Positions 1,661 to 20,182 of a stretch of 20,182 nt of DNA are shown one piece after another. Under the pieces are notes generated by a model. It saw only the letters and a list, made by a program, of their open reading frames with translations. It did no database searches and was not told where the DNA came from. Made by a program: the position numbers and the translations under genes. Source of the stretch: a virus; IMG/VR virus record IMGVR_UViG_3300046451_001742, positions 1-20,182 of that record; one strand, given 5' to 3'. Position 1 is the first letter of the stretch. Each line of letters begins with the position of its first letter.

Positions 1661-4600
1661 TTAGCTTACTGTGATGTCGCCATGCATTGCTGCGTGTAGT
1701 GAACAGTTGTAATGATATGCACCTGCTGCCGGCACTGTCCATCTAATTGTAGCATTTGTTGCACCTTGGTTTGTTGCTCCACTAGCTTGGTTGCCAGTGC
1801 CAGTACCGTTTACAGTTTTAAGGTAGAACGGATGTCCTGCTGCTGATACAACAAAGTCTACTACATCACCTGCATTAAATGCCAGAGCCGGATCATCACC
1901 ACTTATACTACCACTTCGATCTGTACCGCTTAGTGTATATGCGCTAGCGCCGTTGTTTCCTACGTTAAGAGTATAATCAGCACCTATTGAAGTATCATTA
2001 ATTGTAACTGTATGGTTGTCATATGTATTATCTAGTGCTAGTAATATTGTCTCTGCACCTTCAGTAACTCCATCTGCTGCCAGTGTAAATGTAACAGTAG
2101 CAGTATTAGAAGCTACTGTAAAGTTACCAGTTAGACTTGCTGCACTTAAATCTGCACTAGTAACACCTGTAATAGTATATGGTACTGTAGTTGCATCAGC
2201 TACGTTAGTTGTAGTAAGTGTAAATGTAACAGTGCCACCTTCGTTAACTGCTGCTGCACTTGAAGTTACTAAGTACGTTGGATTCAATATACTTGAATCA
2301 GTTACAGCAACACTAACAGTAGCACTCAGTGGTGAATCTAATGATAGTAATAAAGTTTCACTTCCTTCAGTTGTCATATCTTTCGATAAGTTAAGATCTA
2401 GTGTAGCAGCATTTGAACTAATTGTAAAGTTGCCAGTTAGTGAAATTGCTGCATCTGCTGTGTATCCTGATGCACCAGCTACTGCTGGATTACCTGTGTC
2501 ACCGTCTTGGAATATGTTTCTCATTGTTGCAAGTGTTGGCTTAGACATTACTGGTAAAATGTATGTATTAAATAATGCATAACCTAATGGGTTATATGAT
2601 TGAACTCCTGCTGGTGTTCTTGCATTGTCGTTCCATTCAGGACTTAGTGATCCGCCGTCCCATAGTGAAGTGTATTCAAACATAGCAAATGTAAGCAAAT
2701 ACAAGTATTCTTTAGCTGCTATTACAAACGTATCTGCTGTTGCAAGATTACCGTCGTTGTAGCCGCTAATATTAAATGTAGTTGCTGCAACTGCTTCTGC
2801 TATTGCTGCATATAACGCTCTTGTCGCCCACTGAGCATCTGTGCTTGGATCCCAGCTTAGTGCTACAGTTGATCCACTAACGCCGCCACGTACACCAAAG
2901 TAATGTAGAGTGTGGAATATGTGCTCTAGTACTTCAGCTAAGTCATCGTCGCCGATACCTGGCCTAGCACTACTTGAATTTCTGTACCATACCATATCGT
3001 TCACTAAGTACTCGTCTAAAAGACCGTCTACATAACCTGGATACTGATACGATCCTTGTTCTGTTAAGAAGTTCGGATTATAACTTGCTCCGCCGCCATA
3101 AGCAATTCGCTGTGCTGTTGGTTTTCCAGCATGCCATGTACCTGTATCACCTCTTAGTGTTTTAATCATATTCTTCTGATCAGCAGCAACAATATTAGAT
3201 CCTGTTGGGTCAGTAAATAACTCAACAACTCGTGCAACTTTGTCTGTCCACAAATCTGGAACTGCTGTAGCACCTCCAACGTTTGTTGCTTGGTAAAGCT
3301 TTACTCCGTGGACAAGTCTAGACTTATTAAATAATGACCCTGCGGATGTATCTGTAACAAGGCCGCCTTTTGTGTATGGTCCGTTATCTAAATCTGCACT
3401 AGTAACACCTGATAGTGTATATGGTACTGTAGTTGCGTCAGCTACGTTAGTTGTGCTAAGTGTAAGTGTAACACTTTGTCCTTCGCTTATTGTTGTTGCA
3501 CTTCTAGTTAATACATGTGTTGCACCAGGTGTAAGACTTGTATCATTAAGCGTAGTAGACAGGTTGACTCCAAGTGAGTCAAGTGTTAATACCATTGTCT
3601 CTGCGCCTTCAGTAGTTTCGTCTGCTGTGATTGCAAACGCTGCGTTTGCAGTGTTTGATGCAATTGTAAAGATACCAGCTAGACTTGCTCCACCAATGTC
3701 TGCACTATTAATACCTGTAATAGTATATGGTACTGTAGTTGCATCTGCCAAGTTAGCTGTGTTTAGTGTAACAGTTAGTGTACTACCTTCGTTAACATTA
3801 GCAGCACTTCCTGATAATGCGTATGTAGGTGTAATACTTGTGTCGTTAATAGCAACAGTAATACTTTCACTAACTCCATTTAGAGTAATTGTAAATGTCT
3901 CTGCACCTTCAGTAAGTGCGTCATTAGCTAAAGTAAATATAGCTGATGCAGTATTTGACGCTATTGTAAAGTTACCAGTTAAACTTGCTCCGCTTATATC
4001 AGCAGTAGTTACACCTGTAATAGTGTACGGTACATTTGTTGCATCTGCAATATTTGCTGTAGTTAGTGTAATAGTAAATGATTGCCCTTCGTTGAATGCT
4101 GCTCCGCTTCTAGACAATGAGTATGTTGCTGCTGCTGCGTAAGATACTGCTGCTGCCGGAGTACCGATGGTAAGCTGTGTATTGCTATTAAATTTATTAT
4201 ACAAAAATCTATTTGAGCTGCCTGATAAACTACGATTGTTATCATAATCAACAACACTAGCAGTGTCATATAATTGTGCCGTCTTTGCAGTAGACTCAAT
4301 AAACGCTTTAAGCTGTGCTGGAGTTGAAGCTGGATTTAACTGCGCATTTAATGCAGCCATGCCTGCTACTTGTGGTGATGCCATACTTGTACCGCTTATA
4401 TTATTAATTAAGTAAGCAGAGTTTGCTGGGTATGGATTGTTTGTAGTATTAGCACCAAACTTATTAGTTGTGCTCATTGCACTCATAATGTCTGTGCCTG
4501 GTGCATAAATTGTTACAGCAGGTCCTGTTTCTGAATAAGTTGCTTTTTGTTCTAGTCCGCCTGCATTTACAGCAGTATCAATGCTTCCAACAGTATTAGC

Positions 4601-5719
4601 TTGATCATCATAAGGACTTGAACCTCTGTTGTGGTATATAGTTCCTGAATTTGATGTCGTAGTGTTATCATAGTCAAGACCACTAGCAACGTCAATTTTG
4701 TGACTTCTGTTACCAGCAGCAACCATAACGTGTACGCCTGCATCAATAAGCTCTTGCATGTCAACATCAACTGATGCAACTCTTGTATTAGCTGCGTAAG
4801 TAGTTCCTATCGATGCGCCACTTGCTGGATAAAGTCCAAAGGCTGCACGTTTTGAAGCACTATCGATATCAGTGCCTGATTTGGCTGAGCCTCTATATAC
4901 CATACCCGAAACTGTATTGTATCCGATACCGTAACCCCAACTCATGTTAACAATAGTTGGACGCTTATATCCAGTAGCTGCGTCAACTGTTTTTGCATTG
5001 TGCCAGAGCTTAATGCAATCAAATGCGTATGTTATACTAATACCAGTTCCGCTATCGCCTGTGCCTTCAAGACCAGCGAGCTTTACAGAATATATTTTAG
5101 CGTTCTTTGCCCAACCATATGTTTTACCAGTTGCTGTGCCAGCAACGTGTGTGCCGTGTCCGTCATAGTCTCTATAATGATTAGCATTTTGTGTAAAGCC
5201 AAGACCGCTCTCTGTAGCCCAGTTAATTTGTTGTACTCTGCTTACTCCTGATGCATCTTGGAATTCAGGATGGTCAGCTTGTATGCCGCTATCCATAATT
5301 ACAACGTCAACGCCTGTTCCGTCTAAAGTATAGCCGTAGCCGCCTGCTGCTGCTACTGCGCCTGTGTAGACGTTTTGAGATTCGTTGCATCTGCGCATGC
5401 CCCAGTTAAGAAAGCTTCCACGATCAAGTAACGTCTTTGAAAAGTCACCTGTTTGTGTTGCATCAAATCCAATATGAAGATTTGTGTCTAATTCAGGTAG
5501 CAATGTTACACCGTATACTCTAGAATCAGACCTTAAAGCTTCTGCCTCAGCATCTGTTAGATCATAATGCGTATTACGTGCAGATCCAGGCCTAGCATTT
5601 AACACACTAACGGTTCTGTTAGGAATATCGCCTGCTCCAGTGTCGCGTATCATGTCAGCGTTAAAGCCCTCATAATCGACACCTTTATTTAAACTTACAA
5701 TGTGTTCTCTTTCGCTCAT
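1661..5719 (-). CDS. Virion-type subtilisin-like protease with Calx-beta repeats and C-terminal cupredoxin
   Basis: This is a 1352-residue multidomain protein. Residues 1-75 resemble an I9 propeptide ('YDLTDAEAEALRSDSRVYGV'). A peptidase S8 domain follows at about 130-500, with the full triad: Asp143 in 'VVIMDSG', His188 in 'DGHGTHVAG' and Ser445 in 'SGTSMASP', plus oxyanion Asn337 in 'VAAGN'. The His-Ser spacing is wide, which implies insertions. Residues about 530-1245 hold four Calx-beta-like repeats ('NEG..', 'VADATTVPYTITG', 'TEGAET', 'NDTS'). The third repeat is split by an insert of about 310 residues. Residues about 1245-1352 look like a cupredoxin: His1296 ('GHPFYL'), Cys1339, His1342 and Met1345 ('YNCSLHAAM'). 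There is no signal peptide, consistent with a virion protein. AGGAAAAG precedes the ATG. Subtilisin-like structural proteins with this N-terminus are known in marine T4-like phages. Likely jobs are processing of virion proteins or degradation of host surface material; the substrate is unknown. Confidence 0.85.
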   Translation of the reverse strand: MSEREHIVSLNKGVDYEGFNADMIRDTGAGDIPNRTVSVLNARPGSARNTHYDLTDAEAEALRSDSRVYGVTLLPELDTNLHIGFDATQTGDFSKTLLDRGSFLNWGMRRCNESQNVYTGAVAAAGGYGYTLDGTGVDVVIMDSGIQADHPEFQDASGVSRVQQINWATESGLGFTQNANHYRDYDGHGTHVAGTATGKTYGWAKNAKIYSVKLAGLEGTGDSGTGISITYAFDCIKLWHNAKTVDAATGYKRPTIVNMSWGYGIGYNTVSGMVYRGSAKSGTDIDSASKRAAFGLYPASGASIGTTYAANTRVASVDVDMQELIDAGVHVMVAAGNRSHKIDVASGLDYDNTTTSNSGTIYHNRGSSPYDDQANTVGSIDTAVNAGGLEQKATYSETGPAVTIYAPGTDIMSAMSTTNKFGANTTNNPYPANSAYLINNISGTSMASPQVAGMAALNAQLNPASTPAQLKAFIESTAKTAQLYDTASVVDYDNNRSLSGSSNRFLYNKFNSNTQLTIGTPAAAVSYAAAATYSLSRSGAAFNEGQSFTITLTTANIADATNVPYTITGVTTADISGASLTGNFTIASNTASAIFTLANDALTEGAETFTITLNGVSESITVAINDTSITPTYALSGSAANVNEGSTLTVTLNTANLADATTVPYTITGINSADIGGASLAGIFTIASNTANAAFAITADETTEGAETMVLTLDSLGVNLSTTLNDTSLTPGATHVLTRSATTISEGQSVTLTLSTTNVADATTVPYTLSGVTSADLDNGPYTKGGLVTDTSAGSLFNKSRLVHGVKLYQATNVGGATAVPDLWTDKVARVVELFTDPTGSNIVAADQKNMIKTLRGDTGTWHAGKPTAQRIAYGGGASYNPNFLTEQGSYQYPGYVDGLLDEYLVNDMVWYRNSSSARPGIGDDDLAEVLEHIFHTLHYFGVRGGVSGSTVALSWDPSTDAQWATRALYAAIAEAVAATTFNISGYNDGNLATADTFVIAAKEYLYLLTFAMFEYTSLWDGGSLSPEWNDNARTPAGVQSYNPLGYALFNTYILPVMSKPTLATMRNIFQDGDTGNPAVAGASGYTADAAISLTGNFTISSNAATLDLNLSKDMTTEGSETLLLSLDSPLSATVSVAVTDSSILNPTYLVTSSAAAVNEGGTVTFTLTTTNVADATTVPYTITGVTSADLSAASLTGNFTVASNTATVTFTLAADGVTEGAETILLALDNTYDNHTVTINDTSIGADYTLNVGNNGASAYTLSGTDRSGSISGDDPALAFNAGDVVDFVVSAAGHPFYLKTVNGTGTGNQASGATNQGATNATIRWTVPAAGAYHYNCSLHAAMHGDITVS
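1985..4135 (-). repeat. Calx-beta-like domain repeats, four copies, one interrupted
   Basis: Approximate copies lie at 3830-4130, 3520-3830, 3390-3520 plus 2290-2455 (split), and 1985-2280. Each unit is about 290-310 bases. At the protein level the units share 'EG', 'ADAT.VPYTITGV', 'LTGNFTI.SN' and 'TEG.ET'. At the DNA level the segments around 2140-2230 and 3390-3470 are nearly the same over about 80 bases. This points to recent duplication or gene conversion rather than only protein-level similarity. Confidence 0.75.
2455..3389 (-). other. Domain of about 310 aa inserted inside a Calx-beta repeat
   Basis: The third Calx-beta-like repeat reads '..GVTSADL', is interrupted, and resumes at 'SLTGNFTI'. 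The uninterrupted fourth repeat reads 'GVTSADLSAASLTGNF' straight through. The insert is predicted mostly helical and rich in Trp, Tyr and Leu, unlike the Thr/Ala/Val-rich beta repeats around it. It includes 'EHIFHTLHYFG', in which His933, His936 and His939 lie on one helix face next to Glu932. It also has 'AAKEYLYLLTFAMFEY' and 'SLSPEWNDNARTPAG'. I do not recognise the family with confidence. Confidence 0.7.
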
Positions 5720-8648: not shown

Positions 8649-9048
8649 TCTTTAAATCCTATTGTTTTATATATTTATCGTATTCAGTTAAAGTATTATA
8701 GTGCTGCTATTCTACCTTTAAATGCTGCAAAGTCTGCACTTGCTGCAACTTCTGTTTTTAATGTTGCTAATGTTATAGTTTCAGCTTGTAATGCACTTGC
8801 TGCCAATACACCTTGTGCTGCTGTTGCTGCATCAGTAATACTATATCCTGCTAAAGTAGTAGGTTTACCTGTTAAACTTGTGAATGTTTGTGCTGGTACA
8901 CTTGTTAAATATCCTGCAACACTATGATCTCCCCAACCATATGCTGTATTCCAATTAGTTGCTTCTGTTCCAGAAATAACTGAACTTGGTATTAAACCGG
9001 CAACGCCATCTACAAGTAATGTACTATCATCAGCAAACACACTACCTG
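6069..9048 (-). repeat. Dispersed 'GSVFADDS' module, five copies across two fibre genes
   Basis: Copies lie near 6069-6110, 6532-6575, 7081-7123 and 8001-8043 in the 966-residue gene, and 9005-9048 in the 200-residue gene. Each encodes a version of 'GSVFADDSTLLVDGVAG', often followed by a hydrophobic/Gly strand. The copies at 7081 and 9005 and the pair at 8001 and 9005 also share long runs of identical bases. The module is a shaft repeat and a likely recombination point between neighbouring fibre genes. Confidence 0.7.
8672..8679 (-). promoter_or_regulatory. T4/cyanophage-type late promoter (GATAAATA)
   Basis: GATAAATA on the minus strand lies in the 47-base gap between the 200- and 966-residue genes, with exactly 23 bases between the octamer and the ATG at 8648. 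The flank downstream (TATAAAACAATAGG) is AT-rich and contains the AGGA ribosome-binding site. It would give the 966-residue fibre gene and the genes after it their own late start. Confidence 0.72.
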
Positions 9049-9298
9049 TAATGTCACCGTCATATGGATCTACACTAAAAATTATTTTATTAGCAGCATC
9101 GTCTCTTGTTACAGTAACGTTTGTGTGGCTATTGTGTACAAGCATCGGTGCAACAACATCATCGACATCTCCACCTTCTGCACCTAGTAAACTATATACT
9201 TCTGTAAAGTTTGCGTTTACTTTTGTAAATGCTGTGCGTAACGGGTCGCCGTCACCTTTGTTTGCACTGGTTCCTAAATTAACGGTTTGTTTGGCCAC
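8696..9298 (-). CDS. Anchor-domain tail-fibre-like protein, 200 aa (GTG start)
   Basis: The N-terminus (MAKQTVNLGTSANKGDGD, then 'LRTAFTKVNANFTEVY') is the fibre anchor domain shared with the 243- and 2923-residue proteins. Residues about 78-105 hold one 'GSVFADDSTLLVDGVAG' module. Residues about 115-155 read 'NWNTAYGWGDH' and 'LTGKPTTLAGYSITDA', a motif common in phage tail fibres. The C-terminus is helical and ends 'FKGRIAAL'. The start is GTG at 9298: it is preceded by AAGGGAG, it puts the conserved MAKQ at residue 1, and the next in-frame ATG would remove the anchor. The gene overlaps the end of the 51-residue gene by 20 bases, suggesting coupled translation. A short fibre or baseplate-attached protein is likely. 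Confidence 0.77.
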   Translation of the reverse strand: MAKQTVNLGTSANKGDGDPLRTAFTKVNANFTEVYSLLGAEGGDVDDVVAPMLVHNSHTNVTVTRDDAANKIIFSVDPYDGDITGSVFADDSTLLVDGVAGLIPSSVISGTEATNWNTAYGWGDHSVAGYLTSVPAQTFTSLTGKPTTLAGYSITDAATAAQGVLAASALQAETITLATLKTEVAASADFAAFKGRIAAL

Positions 9299-9434
9299 GG
9301 TCTGCTCCCTTGTTTACTTGTATTCTTATTTTGCCAGCAGTAACAACTACTTGCCTTGCTTGCGGATTTCTAGTGTCATTACTAACTTTTACGCCATCTT
9401 TAATTAGTTTGTCTATCTCTGCTTTCTTATCCAT
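9279..9434 (-). CDS. Small hypothetical protein, 51 aa
   Basis: The ATG at 9434 shares one base with the stop of the giant protein (TAATG), and AGGAAAA is placed correctly upstream, so reinitiation after the giant gene is likely. The product starts MDKKAEIDKLIKDG, with a charged amphipathic helix at residues 2-14. A strand-like stretch 'ARQVVVTAGKIRIQV' follows, then a basic, Gly/Asn-rich tail. It has no cysteines or membrane segment. It overlaps the next gene by 20 bases. The tight overlaps on both sides and the good ribosome-binding site make it a real gene. I do not recognise the family; a small virion, assembly or chaperone factor for its fibre neighbours is only a guess. Confidence 0.6.
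   Translation of the reverse strand: MDKKAEIDKLIKDGVKVSNDTRNPQARQVVVTAGKIRIQVNKGADRGQTNR
9305..9311 (-). promoter_or_regulatory. Ribosome-binding site deciding the GTG start at 9298
   Basis: The minus strand reads AAGGGAG six bases before the GTG. It lies inside the coding region of the 51-residue gene and supports GTG over any downstream ATG. Confidence 0.6.
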
Positions 9435-12400
9435 TAGTGTTTTCCTACTACAACTTCAACTGTACCGCGTTCGCCGTCTAGTTTATCTCCAAGTGCTTTA
9501 CCAATAACACTACCAACAGTTGGAGTGTTGTTAACAATTGCATATCCTGGAATATTACTTGCTACTAGCATATCGCCTTTGGCAACTTTACCAATTACGT
9601 TACAAGGTACACGCCCTTGTAGTGCTACTGCAACAACGTTGGCGCCTTCACACTGTGAGTTCATTAAGTGTGCTGGGTTAGTAGACACAACGCCTGCTAC
9701 ACGATGTGTACCGTGTGTTGTGCTTTGTGTAACTTCAGCTTCTCCACCAAACTCAATAACTGTGCCAGGAGCATACTCTGCGTCAGCTAAGTAATTCTCC
9801 GCCAAGTCAGCGTAGTATGATTCAGTTGCAGTACCACGGAACAATGTTGCATAAACATCTTTGTACTTTTTAGTTGCACTACCAATGTCATATGTGTTAT
9901 CAGTGTCTGGTAGCATTCCAGCAGAGCTAAAGATAGCTGGTACAACACTTGAGCCAGATCCAGCAGCAACTATGCCTACTTGTCCAGCTGTTGTCTTACC
10001 AGTGTTACCACCAATTGCTATGCCTGTACTTGCTGCACCCTTTTCACCCGGTGCTTCAATAAAGCTCGAGTAAATCCAGTCAACTCCTAACCGTTTTTCA
10101 TTAGTAAGTGTTGAAGTACTTTGTAAAATACTCTGCGCTGAAACAAGATCTGTTGCTCCAACGTTAATACTACCACTAAGCATCATATCTGGATAAGTTG
10201 GTGCAACATAGCCTGCGTCACCTAAGTTACCTGTACCAGCACTACCACCAACTGCTGTAAACAATAAACCTTGTGCAGGTGTTTTAACTTGTAGTGTTAA
10301 GCTGTCTAAACTTAATACTTCGTAACTTGCATCACCGCCAAGTATTAATGAGTTAGCTTGGATAGTACCATTAGCATCTGTTTTAACAATACTATTAACT
10401 TCACCTGTTTTAGATACGTTAGTAATACCGTAGGTGCCTGCACCAGTTTTAATTAGTGCTTGGCCTGCATCTGCTGCTACTAATATTTCAGTAACAAAGT
10501 CTCCGTCTGCTAAACCTAATCCTTCATCAACTACTGTAGCAAATGGTATTGCTGTAACTGCACCAGCTCCTGCTGCACTACGACCAAGTACTGTATCAGT
10601 TGCAATGTCTTCAAGATCTGCTAGTACTGTAGCTCCTGCTGCTGTAGTAACCCATCCATCAGTAATAGTAAATTTAGAAGAGTCAAAACTTGCACTACCT
10701 AAGTCAGCTTGTGCAATTCCTGTTGCATTTGCTCTTGTAGTTGCTGCATTTAAGTTTAATTTACTTTGTGCAATTTGTGCAGCACCATTGATGTCACCGT
10801 TAACAATAGCAAGTCCTGCAATTTGCATATTAACTTGCGTATAGCGTGTTGCTTGTCCTGCATTTATTCTGTTAGTAGTAATTAAAATATCTGCTGCTGG
10901 ATTTGCCACACCGTTAGCCCATTCATCTACTGGACCATCAATTACATTAATTTGTTTGCCGCCTGGTGCAGTAAGTACGTCTGCTGCTGGTCCAGATGCT
11001 GGTTTCCCGTCACTGAATACACCAGTTAATACAGTGTATGTTACTTCGCAAATATTACCTTCAATGCCAGTAAGACTATCTACGTAATCAACAACTGTAC
11101 CAGTTGCTCCTGATATTGATCCTGTAATAACATCACCTATAGCAAGGTTGCCGCCAACTAGACTTCCGGCGTCTAATATAAGCTTAAACGCTCCTGTAGA
11201 AACTAACATTTGGTTAGCTCCTTGATCTTCGTACGATACGCTCCGTAGATTTTTAATTTCATCAAGGTCGCCACGGCCAGCATCAACATATGCCTTAGTA
11301 GCTGCGTCAGATGTAGCAACAGGAGCTTTTAAGTTAGTAATTGTATTATTAGCTGCGTTTAAATCATCTGTCATTGGTACTGCACCGTTTGGAGCAAGTA
11401 CGCCAGGTCCTAATTTGTTACTAACTGCTGAACCGTTAACATCATAGCCTAAGCGTCTGTTAACATAACCACGTACAGCACTTTCTGTTGGTACTGTGTC
11501 CGAAGCATTGTCTACCATCGCTGTGTCTGTACTAAATTCAGTAATAACAACACCACGCTTAAAGCCTAGTCCGTCTACGTCACTAAGTGCAAGTGATGCA
11601 CTAAATGTAACTGTACCTGTGCCTTGGTCTACACTAAAGAATCTACCAACTCTAAAGATACCATTTTGGTCTGTACTCACATAGAACACACGACCTTTGC
11701 CTACTTCTCTTACTTCGTTAGCTTCTTTCTTCTCACCTGGCTCACCAAAGATAACATTTGGATAGTTACTTGAGTTAAATCCGCCTGTACCAATGTCTAA
11801 GAAGTCATGTGACGTAGCACGACATGTACTAATGTTAACAGTAACGCTACCAAGTGCTCCTGCTTTTAGACCGCCTCTAATCGTAACAAGCTCTGAACCT
11901 AGTACTGCTGTACTGTGAAGCCCTGTTGCATTTGTTTGGTTAATAAAGTCATAATCAACTAGGTCAACAATAGCATATAAGTTATCTTCTGCTGGTGCTT
12001 CAATAACATCACCTGCGCCAACTCCGCGATAGTTAAATGCATAGTGCTTTTTACCACCCCATGTAATAATTGGTGCTTCTAATGTTAAACTAGATGCTGT
12101 CCAACCTGCTGGCCTATTACCTGCAGGCGTTCTTGCGTTGTTGTTAAGTCTAAAGATTTCGTTAGTATCGCAAAGTTTAACAGCTAATACAATATCTCCA
12201 GCAGTATTACCTTTTGTAGTACCTGTGCCTGATAGTGGAGTTTCCTGTGCTTTAGCACTATCAACTGTTAATCTAATAAAGTCGTAAGTGCTATCAAGTC
12301 CTGCTTGTGCAACATTAGCTGGCAAATCTGTTCCCAAACTATTACTTGTTAAGAAGCTAATACTTCTGTAAACAAAGCCTGGGTTCTCATCAAACGTTAA

Positions 12401-15400
12401 TGCTGTACTTGGACGAATTGTTAATACATCTGGACGAGCCAAGTCACTAATAATGTGTGTTTGGTTTCTGTAGTAAACAACATTATAGTTAAACGGAACT
12501 ATTTCCAACAATCCATTTGCACTAAATTGTGTATCACTTGATGAGAAGTTTAACTTATAAACAGCACCGCTATACTTAGGTGTAGTTGGTTCAATTGCAA
12601 TAGTACCTGTAACTGTAACTGTTAGTATTTGTCCTGTACCGTCTACTGTTGCAACTGTAACTGTACAATCGTTTGCTGTAGTTGCGCCACCTAGTTTATC
12701 ACCAGTTACAACAAATGCATCGCCTATTGTATAATTAACTCCGTCGTTTCCTGCTGTAAATGTTACTGTATACCCTGCGTCAATTGTTTTGTAGATATTA
12801 AAAATAAATCCAGTTGCTGCTGCGTTAGCTTTAGTAAATGAGTAATCTGTTGTTTCTACAAGTAATGGATACTCACCAACTATATGATTAACAAGTTCTG
12901 CGTTTGCAACTTCGTAACGTGCAAATGCTGGACGAGCCGGATGCCACACGTTAACTTCTGATCTGTTTGACGGAGCATCTTTCATGTCGTATGCATAAAG
13001 TGCCAAGCTCTGTACTGTGTTAGCATAACCGTTTGAGTCAACACTAACTGGAACACTGTTTGCGCCAAGACCGCCGCTTGTACTACCAGTAAGTATGTTA
13101 GTTGTATCAAACGATCCTGTAACTGTTGTTAAGTAAATTACATTCGAACCACCTGTTTGACTTGTTCCGACTGTAACAACTCCTGTTGCTCCTGAACCTG
13201 TTTGTGTTAATGTTTCACCTGTTGTTAGTACTAAGAATCCAGTAGTGTCTAAAATAATTTTAGCATCAAATGCCTTTATCGGTTGCGTCATATCTTCATA
13301 CAATGCAATTGCATCTGGAATTTCGTTTGGATCACTGCCTTCAGCAACTAGACCAAACTCTCCATAACAACTTGAACCTGTTAGTGATCTAATTTCAGCA
13401 CCATTCTTGGAATAGTAACTAGCATGGCAATAATATGTAAACATACTAACCATCTCTGATAGCGCACCGTTACATGCAACTAGTCCGTATCCTAAGTCGT
13501 TAACTTGTGTAAAGTCGTTTCCTAGTATACTTCTGTTACCAGCAGTTTGTAGTGTAATTGGTAATGGCGCTGCAACACTTTGTATAACACGGTTGATAAT
13601 TAATGCTCTGTTGCTAATAACACTATTAGCTGCTGCAATTAATCCTGCACTTACTGCAAGTGCTGTTAGATTTGGGAATATTTCAGCTGGTAAGCTATTT
13701 AAGTTTCCTGCTGTTATAACATCTTCAATATGCTGTAGTAATCCGTCAAGTACTGTACCTTCTGTACCTGTTGCTGCTGCGCCTGTTGTAACTTGTACTG
13801 ATGCGTTACCCGTTGTTGGAGTTGTACTTGCAACTCCTGTTGCATCTGTAACAACTGCTGCAACAACTGTTGCTAAGTGTGCGTATGCTGCTGCTGTAGC
13901 AACTCTTTGTGCCTCTGGAAGCTGCGCAACTGCTGCATCGTGATATGCACGAGCATTAATTACTGTAGCACTGTTGCCGCCGTATAGTACGTCATACGTT
14001 AATGCATCGACAATAAAGCCTGCATCACGCAAGCATTTAGCTTGACTAAATCCTGCTGGAGGAGTGTTAGCATTTACATATGCTACTACTTCTGCTGCTA
14101 GGAAAGCTCTGTTAGCTTGTAAACGTACTGCTGCATCGTCTGCGTCAGTGGTTGGAAGTGTTGCCGGTGCAGGGAATGTTAATGCATCTGCACTGTTTAC
14201 GCCTGGCTCTGTAACACTTACAACACCGTTATTAATAATATCAATAATTTCATCAAAGGCTGCATTTGATCTTGATAATGCTGCACTTGTTGCTATTACT
14301 GGTGCAAGTAGTGCAACTTCAGTTTTACCTTTAGTAATAGCTGTTGTAGTTTGTGTCTTTTGGTTTGCAATAAGATATGCGCCCGTTGCTCTTTGATACG
14401 CAATACCATTATAAACTGCTTTATAATTAGTGCCTAACGCAAGGTCGTATGTAACAGCGTCAAGTATGTATCCTGTATCTCTTCCGCATTTTACTGTATC
14501 AAACTGGAATGTACCTACTGAGTCTAAGTCAACTCCTGTAGCCAACGCACTTGTTATGCCTGTAAAGCCAGCTCCGCCATTTGAACTTGGTGCTAATATT
14601 AGCTCCGCTGTACCAGCCGCTTTGTCGTATGCAGTAACAGCATTAATTTGAAAACGTCTACCGTCTATATAAAATGCACTTGGAGTTTCAGGACGCCTTA
14701 CAAACAATCCTTGTGGTGCTGCTGCTGATCCTAAACTTTGAATTCCTAATCTAAATGCACTGCCGTCTATTTTGCTTATAACTTGTACTGCACTGTTACC
14801 AACAAACGCATCAACAAACAATCCGCCTCTAAATGCTTGCTTGTTAAGTGACTGTGAGAAACTTGAACCAGTTTGTATATATGGGGACTTAGTTAGAACC
14901 TGTCCTTCAGGATCAAGTACACACATAAATCCGCCGTGTCCTTGTACAGTTAAGTTACGTACCATAGTAGCATCGTTCATTAAGAACACATCACAGTCTG
15001 CATTGCGTAGCGGTGGATTGTAATCTACATTAAACGCAAACTTAACAGTGTCTAGTAAGTTTTGTAATACAACTGCTGGACCGTCAATAACTCTCCAGTT
15101 TGATGAAATTTCTGCTGCGTTAAATACTGCTCCGCCAGTGTGTTCTTTAGTTGGAGTATAATATGTTTTAACACTTGCTGCTGTAAATGTAACTACTGTG
15201 CCTAAACGATAAACTGTGCTTGCTGCCCATGCTTGTGGCTCACCTGATCCATTATACAAGTCTTCTGCATAAAGTCTGTCAGCAAGTGCTCCACCGGCTT
15301 GATTGTAAGTTGTAGTTGGTGATTGGCCAAGTATTAGTTTTTCAGCCATTGTGTAGACATGTTGTATACCTGCAACAGTTTCATCTTCTGTTCCTGCTTC

Positions 15401-18205
15401 TACTGCGCCTGCATAATACTCACCTTGTGTTTCTAGTGCAAACTCGTTGCCACCATTGCGTAAATCTTTTACTAGCGCATCAACAATTAATCCTACATCT
15501 CTAAAGCATTTAGTTCTGCTGTAAGAACCAACTAGTGCAGGATATGTAGTTTCAATGTAGTTAACAACTTGCTCTTGAATAAACTCTTTGTTGTCAATAA
15601 GTGTAAGTGCATTAGTATTCCACTTGCCTACGTTCTCGTAACCAGAACCTGTGTTACGTAATGAGTTAGGCTTATTTAAGTAATGATAACCAAAGTATCC
15701 ATCTACTACATTAGTAAGTGGATTTACATATTCAATTCCGTTTGGTACACTAGCAACTGTAAATGTAATTGCTGCTGCGCCGCCTGCTCCTAGTTGTGCA
15801 TCTAGTACAGTAATACGTTCGCCTTTCTGGAAACTAGTACCTTTGTTAACTGGAGTAATACTTGAAATAGCACCATCTGTGCCAATTACAATAGTAAATG
15901 TAGCAAGGGTGCCTAACTTATCAGTTGTCCATAAACTTACAGTGTATGTTCCTGGTGTTCTACTAGCATCTAATTGTGTGTCAAATGCAACAGATGCAAT
16001 ATTAGACTTACCTAAAATCATTCCATCAAATTCTGCATCGCGATAGAAGAACGTATTCGCCCAACGTGATTGTGAAACACGTTTCTTAGGACGTATAATA
16101 CAACGTCTAAACTCGTCGCCTTTAACACTTACGTTTGCAGGTATACGAATTGGATAGTCTTCTTCGTAAATTCCTGATTCAACACGAATAGCAATTTGTG
16201 TTTCTCTTACATAGTTGCCGTACTCTAATTCTTCCCCAGCAACAAATTCAATTGGCTCTAGTAGTTGAACTTCAAGTTCATCTGTTCCTGCAACAGCTAC
16301 AGCCCTTGGCCCGCTTTCGTGTTTATAATCTATAATACGTGCTGTTGCTCCGGAGTTTACACCTCGTACAACTTTACCAGGAATAATATCAGTATTAGCA
16401 GGGTTAGCTTGTTTAATAAATCCAAGTCCACCGTTGTTCATATTAATCTTATATGTAGTAGTACCATCAACAATTGGCGGAGCATCTAATGGTCCGTTAG
16501 CAATAACAGCTAACACATCGTCCATTCTTGCTGCGATAGCATCATCAGCACTACTATCTGGTAGTGTTAAATTTACATTCTGTAAAACTCGTGTTTGGTA
16601 TGTAGTAGGTACTGCTGTGTTAGTTAAAATGTATTGTGTAACAATGCTTTTAGCATATGTAATGCCTGCAATAGTTTCTACACGCTGCGAGCCAATTGCT
16701 TTTTGCGCACTAACATTTGAGTAGTAACGTATGCCTGCCCAACGTGATAGATAGTTAGCTGAGTTACCTAGTAGTGCATCTAAACTAACACTATCTAATA
16801 TAAATGCAACGTCACGTTGACAAATTTCTAAACTGTATGTTCCTGCAAAGTTAGGGAATGTAGCATCAATGTAGCCCGTAACTTCTTTAGCAATAAATTC
16901 TTTGTTAGCAACAATGATTGCTCTTGCATTTGAACGATTAGCAATACCCGATGCAATTCCTACTGTATTAGTTAATGCTTTTGCTGTGCCAGTTGCAAGT
17001 TGCATAATCTGCATATACGGGCCTGGCTCTGGTGGTGCTGCAATAATTAATTCTTCTGCTTTTTTAGCTGCTGCGTTAATAGTACGATAAGCATACGCAG
17101 GAGCTCTGCCCTCTTTACCATCAGGTGTGTATGTTTGTAAGTCGTTACCTGCTGTACTTACATATAAGTTAACATTACTTTGTGCTGCTGCGTTATCAAC
17201 ATATAGCTTTGTAGCAGCTTGCAAGTCATCTGGTCCATTTGGTAAGCCAGTACCTTTTAGCTCGCCTGGATGATCAAACAAGTTAAGTGTGCCTGCCATG
17301 TCATCGCCTTGGCGCCTTACTACACTCTTACGTGGAATAGCAACATTGTCTAAGAAAAAACCCTCTAGTGTAGCATCGTAAGCAGCATCAGTAATTGTAA
17401 ATGTACCACTGCCGCCACTTAGTAAAATACGTGATGTATTAGAAATAGCATTAGCTTCGGTTGGATAAAGTGCTATTGTGTTTTCGTCTACTATACTGAT
17501 ATAGAATGTACTGCCAGTGACAACACCAAACGGATCAGTTCCAGATGAGTTAAAAATAAATCCAGCACCGTTAAATGCTTCAGTTAGTCCATGAGCAGTA
17601 ATTGTTAAATTACCAACACTGATTCCAGAAGCAGTAAACACATATCCTGTTGCATCTGTTGGCTCGTTGGCAAGACGTAAGCCGCCACCTGCAACGTCTT
17701 TTTGTTGGTAGTTTCTATCTGCAAATGCTTTGTCAATAACAAGAGCACCAGTTGTTAACGCTGTGCCGTGTATTGAGTTAAAAGTATCAATAGCTGACTG
17801 TGTAACACTTACGTTAGCAATTGGCTGCGTTGATGCATCCATCGGGCCGCCTAAAATAGGCTCAGGGTCGTTTGATACCTTACTAACTAGCTGCTTGATA
17901 ATTACTTTACCTGTTTGAGTAAAGTCAAACCCAATAGTATCTGGTGTGCCGTCTAGTGCATTATCTGAAGCAAGTGTAAGTAAGTCAATACCACTACCAT
18001 CTGATTTTACAAGTGGAACTTTGTTTTCGTTACCTTCGTATGTACCTGGAGTATCATTTAGATCAGTGAATGATATTTGTCCACCTATTCCAAATACTGC
18101 ATACAACTCTTGAAAGTTTTCATTTACTTTACGAAATGATTCGCGTATGCTATCACCTGTACCGTCATTACCTTCAATGCCGATGTCTATACCTTGCTTT
18201 GCCAT
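9434..18205 (-). CDS. Giant phage structural protein (tail fibre/adhesin), 2923 aa
   Basis: Residues 1-40 are the fibre anchor ('GNDGTGDSIRESFRKVNENF'), followed near 47 by 'FTDLNDTPGTYEG', also found in the 966-residue protein. Four helical 'C.RD' modules begin near residues 460, 898, 1239 and 1390. A beta-helix-like stretch around 670-730 ('RVESGIYEEDYPIRIPANVS') resembles pectin-lyase-like fibre folds. Regions around 1070-1215 ('MVRNLTVQGHGGFMCVLDP') and 1555-1645 ('NDFTQVNDLGYGLVACNGAL') are hallmarks I recognise from large cyanophage structural proteins. 'GKGRVFYVSTDQNGIFRVG' and 'TKLYVD'-type joins mark the shaft. The last ~130 residues ('YYADLAENYLADAEYAPG' to 'GTVEVVVGKH') are a conserved C-terminal domain of such fibres. 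There is no signal peptide. GGAG precedes the ATG, 17 bases after iscA. It is probably the major long fibre or host-recognition protein; which T4 fibre it corresponds to cannot be told. Confidence 0.83.
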   Translation of the reverse strand: MAKQGIDIGIEGNDGTGDSIRESFRKVNENFQELYAVFGIGGQISFTDLNDTPGTYEGNENKVPLVKSDGSGIDLLTLASDNALDGTPDTIGFDFTQTGKVIIKQLVSKVSNDPEPILGGPMDASTQPIANVSVTQSAIDTFNSIHGTALTTGALVIDKAFADRNYQQKDVAGGGLRLANEPTDATGYVFTASGISVGNLTITAHGLTEAFNGAGFIFNSSGTDPFGVVTGSTFYISIVDENTIALYPTEANAISNTSRILLSGGSGTFTITDAAYDATLEGFFLDNVAIPRKSVVRRQGDDMAGTLNLFDHPGELKGTGLPNGPDDLQAATKLYVDNAAAQSNVNLYVSTAGNDLQTYTPDGKEGRAPAYAYRTINAAAKKAEELIIAAPPEPGPYMQIMQLATGTAKALTNTVGIASGIANRSNARAIIVANKEFIAKEVTGYIDATFPNFAGTYSLEICQRDVAFILDSVSLDALLGNSANYLSRWAGIRYYSNVSAQKAIGSQRVETIAGITYAKSIVTQYILTNTAVPTTYQTRVLQNVNLTLPDSSADDAIAARMDDVLAVIANGPLDAPPIVDGTTTYKINMNNGGLGFIKQANPANTDIIPGKVVRGVNSGATARIIDYKHESGPRAVAVAGTDELEVQLLEPIEFVAGEELEYGNYVRETQIAIRVESGIYEEDYPIRIPANVSVKGDEFRRCIIRPKKRVSQSRWANTFFYRDAEFDGMILGKSNIASVAFDTQLDASRTPGTYTVSLWTTDKLGTLATFTIVIGTDGAISSITPVNKGTSFQKGERITVLDAQLGAGGAAAITFTVASVPNGIEYVNPLTNVVDGYFGYHYLNKPNSLRNTGSGYENVGKWNTNALTLIDNKEFIQEQVVNYIETTYPALVGSYSRTKCFRDVGLIVDALVKDLRNGGNEFALETQGEYYAGAVEAGTEDETVAGIQHVYTMAEKLILGQSPTTTYNQAGGALADRLYAEDLYNGSGEPQAWAASTVYRLGTVVTFTAASVKTYYTPTKEHTGGAVFNAAEISSNWRVIDGPAVVLQNLLDTVKFAFNVDYNPPLRNADCDVFLMNDATMVRNLTVQGHGGFMCVLDPEGQVLTKSPYIQTGSSFSQSLNKQAFRGGLFVDAFVGNSAVQVISKIDGSAFRLGIQSLGSAAAPQGLFVRRPETPSAFYIDGRRFQINAVTAYDKAAGTAELILAPSSNGGAGFTGITSALATGVDLDSVGTFQFDTVKCGRDTGYILDAVTYDLALGTNYKAVYNGIAYQRATGAYLIANQKTQTTTAITKGKTEVALLAPVIATSAALSRSNAAFDEIIDIINNGVVSVTEPGVNSADALTFPAPATLPTTDADDAAVRLQANRAFLAAEVVAYVNANTPPAGFSQAKCLRDAGFIVDALTYDVLYGGNSATVINARAYHDAAVAQLPEAQRVATAAAYAHLATVVAAVVTDATGVASTTPTTGNASVQVTTGAAATGTEGTVLDGLLQHIEDVITAGNLNSLPAEIFPNLTALAVSAGLIAAANSVISNRALIINRVIQSVAAPLPITLQTAGNRSILGNDFTQVNDLGYGLVACNGALSEMVSMFTYYCHASYYSKNGAEIRSLTGSSCYGEFGLVAEGSDPNEIPDAIALYEDMTQPIKAFDAKIILDTTGFLVLTTGETLTQTGSGATGVVTVGTSQTGGSNVIYLTTVTGSFDTTNILTGSTSGGLGANSVPVSVDSNGYANTVQSLALYAYDMKDAPSNRSEVNVWHPARPAFARYEVANAELVNHIVGEYPLLVETTDYSFTKANAAATGFIFNIYKTIDAGYTVTFTAGNDGVNYTIGDAFVVTGDKLGGATTANDCTVTVATVDGTGQILTVTVTGTIAIEPTTPKYSGAVYKLNFSSSDTQFSANGLLEIVPFNYNVVYYRNQTHIISDLARPDVLTIRPSTALTFDENPGFVYRSISFLTSNSLGTDLPANVAQAGLDSTYDFIRLTVDSAKAQETPLSGTGTTKGNTAGDIVLAVKLCDTNEIFRLNNNARTPAGNRPAGWTASSLTLEAPIITWGGKKHYAFNYRGVGAGDVIEAPAEDNLYAIVDLVDYDFINQTNATGLHSTAVLGSELVTIRGGLKAGALGSVTVNISTCRATSHDFLDIGTGGFNSSNYPNVIFGEPGEKKEANEVREVGKGRVFYVSTDQNGIFRVGRFFSVDQGTGTVTFSASLALSDVDGLGFKRGVVITEFSTDTAMVDNASDTVPTESAVRGYVNRRLGYDVNGSAVSNKLGPGVLAPNGAVPMTDDLNAANNTITNLKAPVATSDAATKAYVDAGRGDLDEIKNLRSVSYEDQGANQMLVSTGAFKLILDAGSLVGGNLAIGDVITGSISGATGTVVDYVDSLTGIEGNICEVTYTVLTGVFSDGKPASGPAADVLTAPGGKQINVIDGPVDEWANGVANPAADILITTNRINAGQATRYTQVNMQIAGLAIVNGDINGAAQIAQSKLNLNAATTRANATGIAQADLGSASFDSSKFTITDGWVTTAAGATVLADLEDIATDTVLGRSAAGAGAVTAIPFATVVDEGLGLADGDFVTEILVAADAGQALIKTGAGTYGITNVSKTGEVNSIVKTDANGTIQANSLILGGDASYEVLSLDSLTLQVKTPAQGLLFTAVGGSAGTGNLGDAGYVAPTYPDMMLSGSINVGATDLVSAQSILQSTSTLTNEKRLGVDWIYSSFIEAPGEKGAASTGIAIGGNTGKTTAGQVGIVAAGSGSSVVPAIFSSAGMLPDTDNTYDIGSATKKYKDVYATLFRGTATESYYADLAENYLADAEYAPGTVIEFGGEAEVTQSTTHGTHRVAGVVSTNPAHLMNSQCEGANVVAVALQGRVPCNVIGKVAKGDMLVASNIPGYAIVNNTPTVGSVIGKALGDKLDGERGTVEVVVGKH
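13860..16920 (-). repeat. Four 'C.RD..(I/V)DA..D' helical modules in the giant protein
   Basis: Modules lie near 16625-16915, 15310-15597, 14330-14500 and 13860-14118. Three open with 'N(K/R)(E/A)F(I/L)...V..Y(I/V)', and all four then have a conserved Cys followed by 'RD.(G/A).I(V/L)D' and 'D' about eight residues later. Examples are 'CQRDVAFILDSV', 'CFRDVGLIVDAL', 'CGRDTGYILDAV' and 'CLRDAGFIVDAL'. The third copy lacks the opening helix. Bases are less alike than residues, so the duplications are old. Confidence 0.65.
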
Positions 18206-18222: not shown

Positions 18223-18582
18223 TTATATTGCTATTGCTAATGAATTGTCTAACTTGTCTATATCAAAGTTAATACTTACGCCGCAACCACATGCTGATTC
18301 TGCGTTTGGATTTTTAATATCAAAATTTGAACCTACTAAGTTCCTTACATAGTCTATTTCTGTACCTATTAGATACATTACAGTGGCTGCTCTAATAACA
18401 AACCGCCCTATAACTACATCATTTTTTTCTACATCTGTTTCTGAATCTAAAGTTGTCCAGTCGTATTCAAAGCCAGCGCAGCCGCCGCCTTTAAGGTCTA
18501 AGCATACTGCATAGACATCGTTATCATCACAAATAGAGTCTATTTGTTTGACTGCTTTCTCGGTTAGTGTACAAATTGTCAT
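18223..18582 (-). CDS. iscA: A-type iron-sulfur carrier protein (HesB/IscA family), 119 aa
   Basis: The product carries the family's three metal/cluster cysteines: Cys35 in 'LKGGGCAGFEY' and Cys98 and Cys100 in 'ESACGCG'. It is of normal family length (about 105-120 aa) and cytoplasmic, with no signal peptide. A-type carriers hold Fe-S clusters or iron and pass clusters to target proteins. Homologs are known in marine T4-like phages. I chose the ATG at 18582: AAGGAAAA precedes it by a normal distance, a late promoter lies 20 bases upstream, and the product then starts at the family's usual 'TLTEKAV' helix. An upstream in-frame extension would run across the divergent gene. It is 17 bases upstream of the giant protein gene and probably cotranscribed with it. 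The sequence cannot separate IscA, SufA and ErpA-like roles, so the symbol is by family only. Confidence 0.87.
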   Translation of the reverse strand: MTICTLTEKAVKQIDSICDDNDVYAVCLDLKGGGCAGFEYDWTTLDSETDVEKNDVVIGRFVIRAATVMYLIGTEIDYVRNLVGSNFDIKNPNAESACGCGVSINFDIDKLDNSLAIAI

Positions 18583-18602
18583 TAATTTTCCTTCTATGCT
18601 AT

Positions 18603-18610
18603 TATTTATT
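18603..18610 (-). promoter_or_regulatory. T4/cyanophage-type late promoter (AATAAATA) in divergent gap
   Basis: The minus strand reads AATAAATA in the 61-base gap between iscA and the plus-strand zinc-ribbon gene, 20 bases before the iscA ATG. It matches NATAAATA and is the only candidate seen for the iscA/giant-protein unit. The rest of the gap is AT-rich. No clear promoter or strong ribosome-binding site was found for the plus-strand gene. Confidence 0.6.
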
Positions 18611-18643
18611 CTTTTATTTTGTAATCTTAATGTAAATATACTT

Positions 18644-18931
18644 ATGTTTATAAGAGAATTTAAAAAGCAGACCCGGCATGTGCGTACTAGCAAAATGGGC
18701 AAGGAACATGCATACAAGCGTGAACAAACGCATTGTGTATTTCGGTGTGACAATTGTGATGCAGAGTTTGAACGTGCTAGAGGAAGCATGGATCCAAAGC
18801 GTCTAAGTAATAACTACTTTCACGTATGTAAGAACTGTGATAGTAAGGTTTTTGCCCAAAAGAAAGGCGTAGAACGCAAACAAGTTTGGAACATGAGTGC
18901 TAGTAGCTCTACGCCTATCGGTAAGTTATAG
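18644..18931 (+). CDS. Zinc-ribbon-like small protein, 95 aa
   Basis: This is the only convincing plus-strand gene. The protein starts MFIREFKKQTRHVRTSKMGK, very basic, and holds two CxxC pairs: Cys35/Cys38 in 'FRCDNCD' and Cys62/Cys65 in 'HVCKNCD'. The spacing suits one zinc-ribbon site. Extra Cys31 and His60 are nearby. It ends in a flexible 'SASSSTPIGKL' tail. The basic N-terminus and zinc site suggest nucleic-acid binding, but no catalytic motif such as HNH is seen. I chose the ATG at 18644 because the conserved-looking charged sequence starts there; longer in-frame starts would enter iscA on the other strand and add hydrophobic junk. No good Shine-Dalgarno was found. Similar proteins seem to occur in T4-like cyanophages, recalled from memory. 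The role is unknown. Confidence 0.68.
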   Translation: MFIREFKKQTRHVRTSKMGKEHAYKREQTHCVFRCDNCDAEFERARGSMDPKRLSNNYFHVCKNCDSKVFAQKKGVERKQVWNMSASSSTPIGKL

Positions 18932-19057
18932 TTTTTTATAGTCGCCGATGTGCTTGATGTCGTTAAATGCTTCGTGTCCTTCAAAATACATCTGTACCAT
19001 TACATATATTGCTATATTAACAAATATAAGAAGTCCGTACATTAAATAGCCAATCAT
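18926..19057 (-). CDS. Single-pass membrane microprotein, 43 aa
   Basis: Its ATG overlaps the TGA of the copper monooxygenase-like gene (ATGA, 19057-19054), a standard sign of coupled translation. It encodes MIGYLMYGLLIFVNIAIYVM, then a short polar tail with Glu, His, Asp and Lys ('FEGHEAFNDIKHIGDYKKL'). Residues about 3-25 form one membrane helix, without a cleavable signal. The stop overlaps the end of the convergent zinc-ribbon gene by six bases. The tail has two His and several acidic residues but no clear metal motif. The coupling suggests it anchors, assembles or regulates the upstream oxidoreductase at the membrane. This is inference, since the family is not recognised. Confidence 0.6.
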   Translation of the reverse strand: MIGYLMYGLLIFVNIAIYVMVQMYFEGHEAFNDIKHIGDYKKL

Positions 19058-20182
19058 AAGTTTTTCCAAGTAAATGCGCCAAAGAACATTTCATCCTCTG
19101 ACATTTGTCCCCATGGCACTAGTCTGCTTGGATCTGGATTCATTTTATTCTCTTCTGAGTTATCAAATGCTCCTTCTACAAACAGTCTTGTTCCTTTAGG
19201 TAAAGGCTTAGGCTCTTTCCAGGTATATGATAGCTGCCAAGCGTAGTCGTATACAGGAATATCGATTAGCTCCTCTACAGTACCATCTGGGTAAAATGCT
19301 GTAGCTTTCATACTTTTACCACGAAAGTGCATGTGCGGTAAAAATGTGTGCAAGTTTACATCGTTCTTTAATACTACTTCTGCTGTTTGTACAAAGTTAG
19401 GATCGTATGGAGGAATCGGTGTCCATGTGTCGGGGAATATACAAGCACAATCGCCTGCCATTCTTTCTTCTGGTACTACGCCTTCATCGTGAAAGTACAA
19501 CCCAATTCTTGCTTTATCTGTTCTAGCAGTTCCGTCAGGTGTATAATGTAATTGCAAATTTACAATTGATCCTGCACGTATTAAACCACCAGTGTTAGCA
19601 TCATAGAACTCAGGGTCGCCGCCTGGAACATATGCACTAATACTAGCATAATTCATTTCTTCTTGACCACCACCTTGTGTACCTAAGATGTTACCGTTGC
19701 GCTCGCCAGGTACTGTAATTGAGTTTAGCATGTGATGCATTACAGTTGGCTCTGAAGGCAAAAACTGCGACCCACGTAACCAACGATCCTCAGTTAATCC
19801 TAGGTCTGCTTGCGTGTATCTGTAAGGTATTGCATTAGGTCCCATAGATCCTATTGCTGGTATTTCTTGTGGGGGAACTTCGATAATCATATCAGGTTCA
19901 CCGTGTACCCATTCTGAAGTTGAGTATACAGTTTCTGTTAGAGGATCTCTATCACCTTCTACAGGAGTGCCTGCGTCAATCCAAGCTACAAGAGTTTCCA
20001 TCTCTAAATCATTTAGCGTTCTGTGATTTATGATATCCTTTGCATACTTACGATCGATCTGTCCTGGTGGCATACGTTTTGATACAATAGCTTCTTTAAT
20101 TGCAGGAGCAAATGCTTGTAACATTCTATAGTCAGTCATTGCCCATGGCGCAATGCCACTTTCTCTATGACAAGCTTGACAT
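19054..20182 (-). CDS. Cytochrome c-type heme domain fused to PHM/DBH-like type II copper monooxygenase (5' end outside window)
   Basis: The frame is open to the right edge, giving 375 codons plus stop; the true start and any signal peptide lie outside. Position 20181-20167 encodes CQACH, a c-type heme-binding CxxCH, and 'SKRMPPG' (20082-20062) supplies a likely axial Met. The rest matches the two-domain copper type II ascorbate-dependent monooxygenase fold. Counting from the ATG at 20139, His135-His136 ('MHHML') and His198 ('LQLHY') match the first copper site. His269 and His271 ('PHMHFRG') and Met351 ('SEDEMFFG') match the catalytic copper site of PHM. 'FDNSEENKMNPDP' is typical of bacterial members. 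Such enzymes hydroxylate C-H bonds or dehydrogenate with O2. The substrate here is unknown, but heme fusion implies electron delivery outside the cytoplasm. It overlaps the membrane microprotein gene. It is not a normal phage gene. Confidence 0.82.
   Translation of the reverse strand, partial: CQACHRESGIAPWAMTDYRMLQAFAPAIKEAIVSKRMPPGQIDRKYAKDIINHRTLNDLEMETLVAWIDAGTPVEGDRDPLTETVYSTSEWVHGEPDMIIEVPPQEIPAIGSMGPNAIPYRYTQADLGLTEDRWLRGSQFLPSEPTVMHHMLNSITVPGERNGNILGTQGGGQEEMNYASISAYVPGGDPEFYDANTGGLIRAGSIVNLQLHYTPDGTARTDKARIGLYFHDEGVVPEERMAGDCACIFPDTWTPIPPYDPNFVQTAEVVLKNDVNLHTFLPHMHFRGKSMKATAFYPDGTVEELIDIPVYDYAWQLSYTWKEPKPLPKGTRLFVEGAFDNSEENKMNPDPSRLVPWGQMSEDEMFFGAFTWKNL

Follow-up and report, generated by a model that had tools for sequence, protein, structure and literature searches.

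Receptor-binding and tail proteins of phages are known for domain mosaicism, in which, as described in the main text of Smug et al. 2023 (PMC10684548), homologous fragments are found in otherwise unrelated proteins through recent exchanges. T4-like cyanophages have baseplate proteins such as T4-GC 1018 of the gp7/gp8/gp9 region (Sullivan et al. 2010, PMC3037559). The subject of this report is a domain of about 310 residues, hereafter the module, which is nested in one repeat of a subtilisin-like protein on a 20-kb virus fragment from IMG/VR (record IMGVR_UViG_3300046451_001742, positions 1 to 20,182; this whole stretch is called the window), and which also resides in T4-GC 1018 of several cyanophages. 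Like the fragments described by Smug et al. 2023 (PMC10684548), the module is common to unrelated phage proteins and has been exchanged recently. Unlike them, it is one enzyme-like domain nested in folded domains at dozens of sites, its cassette edges are sharp to ~10 bp, and it is present at one copy per genome; the words 'nested', 'inserted' and 'metallo' do not occur in the main text of that paper.

The explanation favored here, with a probability of roughly 0.55 for the whole chain, is that this roaming, unclassified, zincin-like module is displayed on the virion and serves there as a metal-dependent hydrolase, probably a peptidase with targets at the host surface. A protein domain acts here as a mobile unit with borders sharp at the DNA level, which has entered and left the same loops repeatedly and stays at one copy per phage, and an old question becomes directly testable: what permits the intact nesting of a whole domain, and what limits it to a single copy. 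Near-isogenic natural pairs, one member with the module and one lacking it, exist among cyanophage isolates (S-RIM12 KX349318 and KX349307).

In the window protein, the interrupted repeat reads SGVTSADL-[DNGPYTKGG...SGYTADAA]-ISLTGNF, against TGVTTADI-SGA-SLTGNF, TGINSADI-GGA-SLAGIF and TGVTSADL-SAA-SLTGNF in its three uninterrupted sisters. The initial annotation, which had placed the insert at 2455..3389 and the split in the SADL/SLTGNF loop, was right about the loop and correct to one base about the coordinates, as residues 778-1088 correspond to window positions 2456-3388. It had also singled out the composition of the insert, which is indeed distinct (threonine 9.3% in the insert vs 20.5%, lysine plus arginine 6.1% vs 0.7%, tryptophan 2.3% vs 0), and despite this amino-acid contrast the GC content is almost equal (0.424 in the insert vs 0.409). 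The flanking repeats resemble Calx-beta, as proposed earlier, but Pfam finds no Calx-beta domain in the host protein at E<=1, and they are therefore called Calx-beta-like. In an AlphaFold (AF2) model of the nested unit, the module is confident and the flanking repeat reaches a predicted local distance difference test score (pLDDT) of only ~26-63, too low for a judgment on its fold. It is plausible that the two halves come together around the insert as a single beta-sandwich repeat.

Searches with the insert gave no match in Pfam, NCBIfam, PHROG or PDB sequences. The module belongs to no family in the searched libraries and is a previously unclassified domain; no earlier description of it was found in the open-access literature, subscription papers being outside the scope.

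Distribution and movement of the module

A tblastn search with the insert matched 85 phage records at ~52-53% identity, with 98-99% of the insert covered; every one of these phages is a marine T4-like cyanophage. Profile scans recovered the module in 263 IMG/VR contigs and at 22 loci in the genomes of some marine bacteria, and a plasmid search gave no match. It is typically ~305 aa long and in most phages internal to a larger protein. In some subtilisins it lies in the S8 catalytic domain, with the Asp box on one side and the His box on the other; other copies follow S8 or interrupt Calx-beta-like repeats, and yet others are found in baseplate wedge proteins, in tail fibers, in proline-threonine repeat proteins and in a lectin domain of the LamG type. 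Several phage and bacterial proteins carry it at the chain end. Because homologues carry the same unit in other places, chance is excluded as the source of the insert.

Individual loci show further variation. In proline-threonine repeat proteins (L031, L277-L286), a cysteine stands on either side of the module, LLSC[...]DDC, and the pair may staple its neck by a disulfide. The flavobacterial copies L358-L363 are C-terminal in lipoproteins that bear one or two InlB-type B-repeats. In L271, a 999-aa open reading frame with the module at ~498, the usual module start is missing and a start, DPEYNNGPLISNG, lies instead after the module end, an arrangement that, judged from the sequence, resembles a partial circular permutation or duplication.

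Mobility was assessed on 182 distinct pairs of module and context with clustered flanks, in which 70 raw cluster pairs were reduced to 41 site classes. Assignment to classes relied in part on patterns and manual judgment, and the 36 that come from phages are an upper estimate, since singletons with diverged flanks may share a site; 19 of the classes listed have more than one member. The maximum-likelihood tree of the modules calls for at least 59 site changes, compared with a mean of 113 when labels are shuffled; at least 11 of the changes lead into or out of the S8-internal site, and three concern the Calx-beta-like site, whose copies fall into three clades. The window copy groups with its closest relative, L002, which lies in the same protein, near the copies L003 and L004 in a giant tail protein. 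Moreover, nearly identical module DNA is found at different sites: L052, which interrupts S8, and L054, which interrupts another protein, share 97.9% identity over 906 bp, and L044 (in a Calx-beta-like loop) and L049 (after S8) share 96.2% over 923 bp. In both pairs, similarity ends ~10 bp or less from the conserved edges GATCCAGAATAYAACAAYGG and GCAGGTGCATCAGGATATGTAGTAGAC, at which inspection by eye only revealed neither terminal inverted repeats nor target-site duplications.

Empty sites complement this picture. The module is absent from 80 subtilisin open reading frames and internal in 35, and their alignments oppose HPEF-[~310 aa]-SRV to an uninterrupted loop; L159 is the empty counterpart of L051 and L054. 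T4-GC 1018 hosts the module in Syn33, S-RIM12 and S-RIM2, and its orthologues in S-BM1, S-CAM8, P-SSM7 and others give a two-piece match over ~82-83% of the protein, the gap between the two pieces in S-BM1 being exactly the module. Furthermore, the baseplate protein of the cultured isolates KX349318 and KX349307 (Brizovirus syn33) differs by an in-frame stretch of exactly 951 bp, or 317 aa, between YIYDA[TS][IV]G and LD[EQ][FY]NGK. Its flanks have short diverged tracts at the junctions and 100% identity further out, and from these sequences the difference looks like an exchange through flanking recombination rather than precise excision. The module-free KX349307 and S-BM1 contain no copy anywhere in the genome; the module is dispensable in nature.

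At the Calx-beta-like site, L143 and L144 were considered as a clean insertion pair and rejected, because the surrounding repeat has been replaced along with the module; the pair supports recombinational exchange between repeats over insertion alone.

Strong support for the earlier suggestion that recombination captured the module comes from these insert-free versions, from the occurrence of the unit in many unrelated proteins and from its sharp DNA edges. The absence of the insert as a unit, which had been proposed as a check, is seen in the insert-free subtilisins (L120-L143 and others) as well as in the two module-free cyanophages. That the insert is an artefact of the gene model, or simply a fixed domain of a single protein family, would agree with L002, which has the same arrangement and 91% module identity; this reading was rejected since insert-free versions exist, and with insert-free orthologues and dozens of other contexts its probability is next to nil.

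One copy per record was counted in 85/85 phage records and in 23/23 long records, including those of 252, 206 and 174 kb. In bacterial genomes, 13/15 have one copy and the other two contain adjacent fragments of one broken copy. Because copies are single throughout the searched records, the module is taken to be present once or not at all per genome. That it is a DNA-level mobile, in-frame, single-copy unit is observed and, as far as mobility is concerned, virtually certain.

Such mobility with sharp edges, together with patchy presence among close relatives, would also be expected of a selfish cassette that brings the phage no benefit and spreads by an unseen homing activity. This is very improbable, given that no genome searched holds more than one full copy, that the module contains no nuclease, that its edges lack visible repeats or duplications, and that it is under strong purifying selection: the median ratio of nonsynonymous to synonymous substitution rates (dN/dS) is 0.126 over 1137 module pairs and 0.125 between different host sites.

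Motif, fold and putative activity

The Glu-His-x2-His-x2-His face noticed in the initial annotation is present as E932, H933, H936 and H939, that is, E155, H156, H159 and H162 in insert numbering, on a predicted helix spanning 146-164. Residues E152, E155, H156, H159, T160, G165, K226, E227 and Y228 are unchanged in 182/182 modules, as are H86, Q93, Y103, D131, W134, Y135, M236, W243, E251 and W252, and position 162 is His in 180/182. For the module alone, AF2 returned a pLDDT of 94.3 and a predicted template modeling score (pTM) of 0.93, and predicted two strands, two helices, two strands and then two long helices, the first bearing E152, E155, H156, H159 and H162 and the second K226-E227-Y228. 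The domain had been described as helical, which is true of 43% of the model; with a further 11% in strands, it is better regarded as an alpha/beta fold.

Comparison by VIA-align of the Foldseek candidates gave gluzincin zinc metallopeptidases for all 50 of the matches listed, the best with Z 7.2, 168 residues aligned and a root-mean-square deviation of 4.2 A. From the entry titles, we take these entries to belong to families M34, M30, M9, M1 and M4. As modeled, the module may share with the gluzincins (clan MA(E): M34 of the PPEP/lethal-factor type, M30, M1, M4, M9) an alpha/beta scaffold, as aligned by VIA-align, and a helix of the active-site type ahead of a second one that carries an invariant Glu; it departs from them in that E-H-x-x-H replaces H-E-x-x-H. 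Modeling suggests a zincin-like fold. The metal site suspected earlier gains indirect backing from this fold and from the invariance in 182 modules, and the bound metal itself is conjectural.

Several results weigh against a displayed zincin-like hydrolase. Foldseek found no significant match for the module model in PDB or BFVD, and the best Z of 7.2 lies within a range that VIA-align calls common and warns is not proof. The canonical HExxH occurs in 0/182 modules, all 182 having E-H-x-x-H. HHalign of the module or its EExxH relatives (see below) against HExxH proteins, namely PF13485 members from the same bacteria, was negative (prob 3.8), with shallow profiles and a 3-sequence template; likewise, no sequence or profile relationship to gluzincins was detected in Pfam, NCBIfam, PDB sequences or HHalign. 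Lastly, several host proteins have no family match, so that a virion location is supported at only part of the sites.

Where host proteins can be classified, it is supported that the module rides on virion or virion-associated proteins: PHROG matches among 20 scanned host proteins comprise 9 tail or baseplate and 3 subtilisin family proteins, the rest being unclassified. The same association with baseplate and tail-fiber families, the usual place of receptor binders, favors a transferable binding module or adhesin, in which a structural metal would be bound by the conserved residues and the domain would attach to a common host-surface ligand without catalysis. The dispensability of the module and the departure of its motif from HExxH would suit such a role as well. 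Nevertheless, the invariance is concentrated in catalytic-looking charged or polar residues and dN/dS is uniformly low, whereas receptor binders usually diversify, and the module is also carried on bacterial secreted lipoproteins; an adhesin is thus considered unlikely, yet deserving of attention.

A self-processing element, which would cleave or splice its own host protein in the manner of an intein or a tail-maturing autoprotease, has in its favor the resemblance of the fold to peptidases and the fact that the module, like inteins, is an in-frame, nested, patchy single unit of ~300 aa, lodged in folded domains. Unlike inteins, it has no HINT match in Pfam or NCBIfam searches and no conserved Cys, Ser or Thr at its junctions, where the terminal GY is followed by Val in 86/145 cases and by various residues in the others, and both absences led to the rejection of an intein. 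In addition, copies at chain ends, where splicing would be pointless, occur in several phage and bacterial proteins, among them bacterial lipoproteins. Self-processing in general is improbable.

For the favored virion-displayed hydrolase, the following sequence of steps is envisaged. Recombination transfers the cassette, as DNA and with the frame kept, from site to site and from phage to phage. Among virion proteins, subtilisin, baseplate wedge, tail fiber and lectin-like proteins would receive it in exposed loops or at their termini. There it would fold independently and be tolerated by the host fold, which the confidence of the stand-alone model and the intact catalytic triads of proteins with S8-internal copies (motifs complete in 50/54 full-length proteins) suggest. 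With the module carried on the virion tail or a tail-associated subtilisin, a metal held by the residues of the E-H-x-x-H helix and E227 would hydrolyze a target on the host surface, most likely a protein, and help the phage reach the cell. Metal-dependent hydrolysis is what we infer. The earlier idea that the insert may carry the protein's real specificity is conjectural; the invariant putative site and the single copy per genome speak for one fixed activity more than for a specificity that varies.

The module is part of a larger, unannotated superfamily of marine phages and surface lipoproteins of marine bacteria, with a metal-type motif unlike that of known zincins. Distant relatives in Flavobacteriaceae are lipoprotein-like, ~320 aa long, and have EVIEHLLHT or EVVEHILHA plus QE[YF]AYW. 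A flavobacterial genome (L375, G751:C25:58000-68500) has three neighboring superfamily genes with RDAxxEExxH next to a CocE-like hydrolase, and the Opitutales module protein also has an N-terminal domain with EEVLH. Profile comparison by HHalign joins the module set and the EExxH set (prob 96, E 4.5e-9), placing E-E-x-x-H on E155-H156-x-x-H159 and TE[YF] on KE227Y; therefore, motif position 1 is Glu throughout, position 2 Glu or His and position 5 His. None of these wider proteins scored at the curated cut-off in Pfam or NCBIfam, and the one compared with PDB gave no credible match. It is tentatively proposed that they form a new E-[E/H]-x-x-H enzyme superfamily with a rearranged zincin-type site, of which one branch may have become a nomadic single-copy phage cassette, nested even inside the catalytic domain of another protease without disabling its triad, with selection keeping the activity rather than the gene position.

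The window protein and its neighbors

The host protein is a member of the subtilase S8 family by its Pfam domain and consists of this domain, Thr-rich repeats and a weak cupredoxin-like tail. Relatives of it bear the module within the S8 domain itself.

Table 1. Features of the module and its host protein in the window
Feature	Position	Strand	Basis
Host protein, 1352-aa subtilisin-repeat open reading frame	1661..5719	minus	Peptidase_S8 E=2.3e-30; PHROG 9158 and 3677
Subtilase (S8) domain, residues 134-481, module-free in the window protein	4277..5320	minus	Pfam PF00082 E=2.3e-30
Interrupted Calx-beta-like repeat, first half, residues 733-777, end ...GVTSADL	3389..3523	minus	Comparison with uninterrupted repeats
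Module, zincin-like alpha/beta domain (predicted), residues 778-1088 (311 aa)	2456..3388	minus	Homology to over 180 modules; AF2; VIA-align to gluzincins
EHIFHTLH motif, residues 932-939 (module E155 H156 xx H159 xx H162), putative metal site	2903..2926	minus	Conservation
KEY, residues 1003-1005 (module K226 E227 Y228), E227 putative third ligand	2705..2713	minus	Invariant 182/182; helix 218-236
Interrupted repeat, second half, residues 1089-1143, start DAAISLTGNF	2291..2455	minus	Comparison with uninterrupted repeats
Cupredoxin-like C-terminal tail, residues 1278-1351	1667..1888	minus	Pfam Copper-bind E=0.096 (weak); PHROG 27200 and 15006 tail fiber

The C-terminus of the subtilisin protein has the look of a small cupredoxin, HPFYLK...YHYNCSLHAAMHG (window 1667-1888, minus). 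A T4 gp9/gp10-like anchor of ~38 aa opens the tail proteins at 911-1642, 8696-9298 and 9434-18205 (minus), recognized by Pfam PF07880 and PHROG 677 in the first two and by eye in the third. Further along the window, 18223-18789 (minus) encodes an iron-sulfur biosynthesis (IscA-like) protein (Pfam E=1.5e-11), and 19054-20181 (minus) has a weak match to a copper monooxygenase C-terminal domain (E=0.0074).
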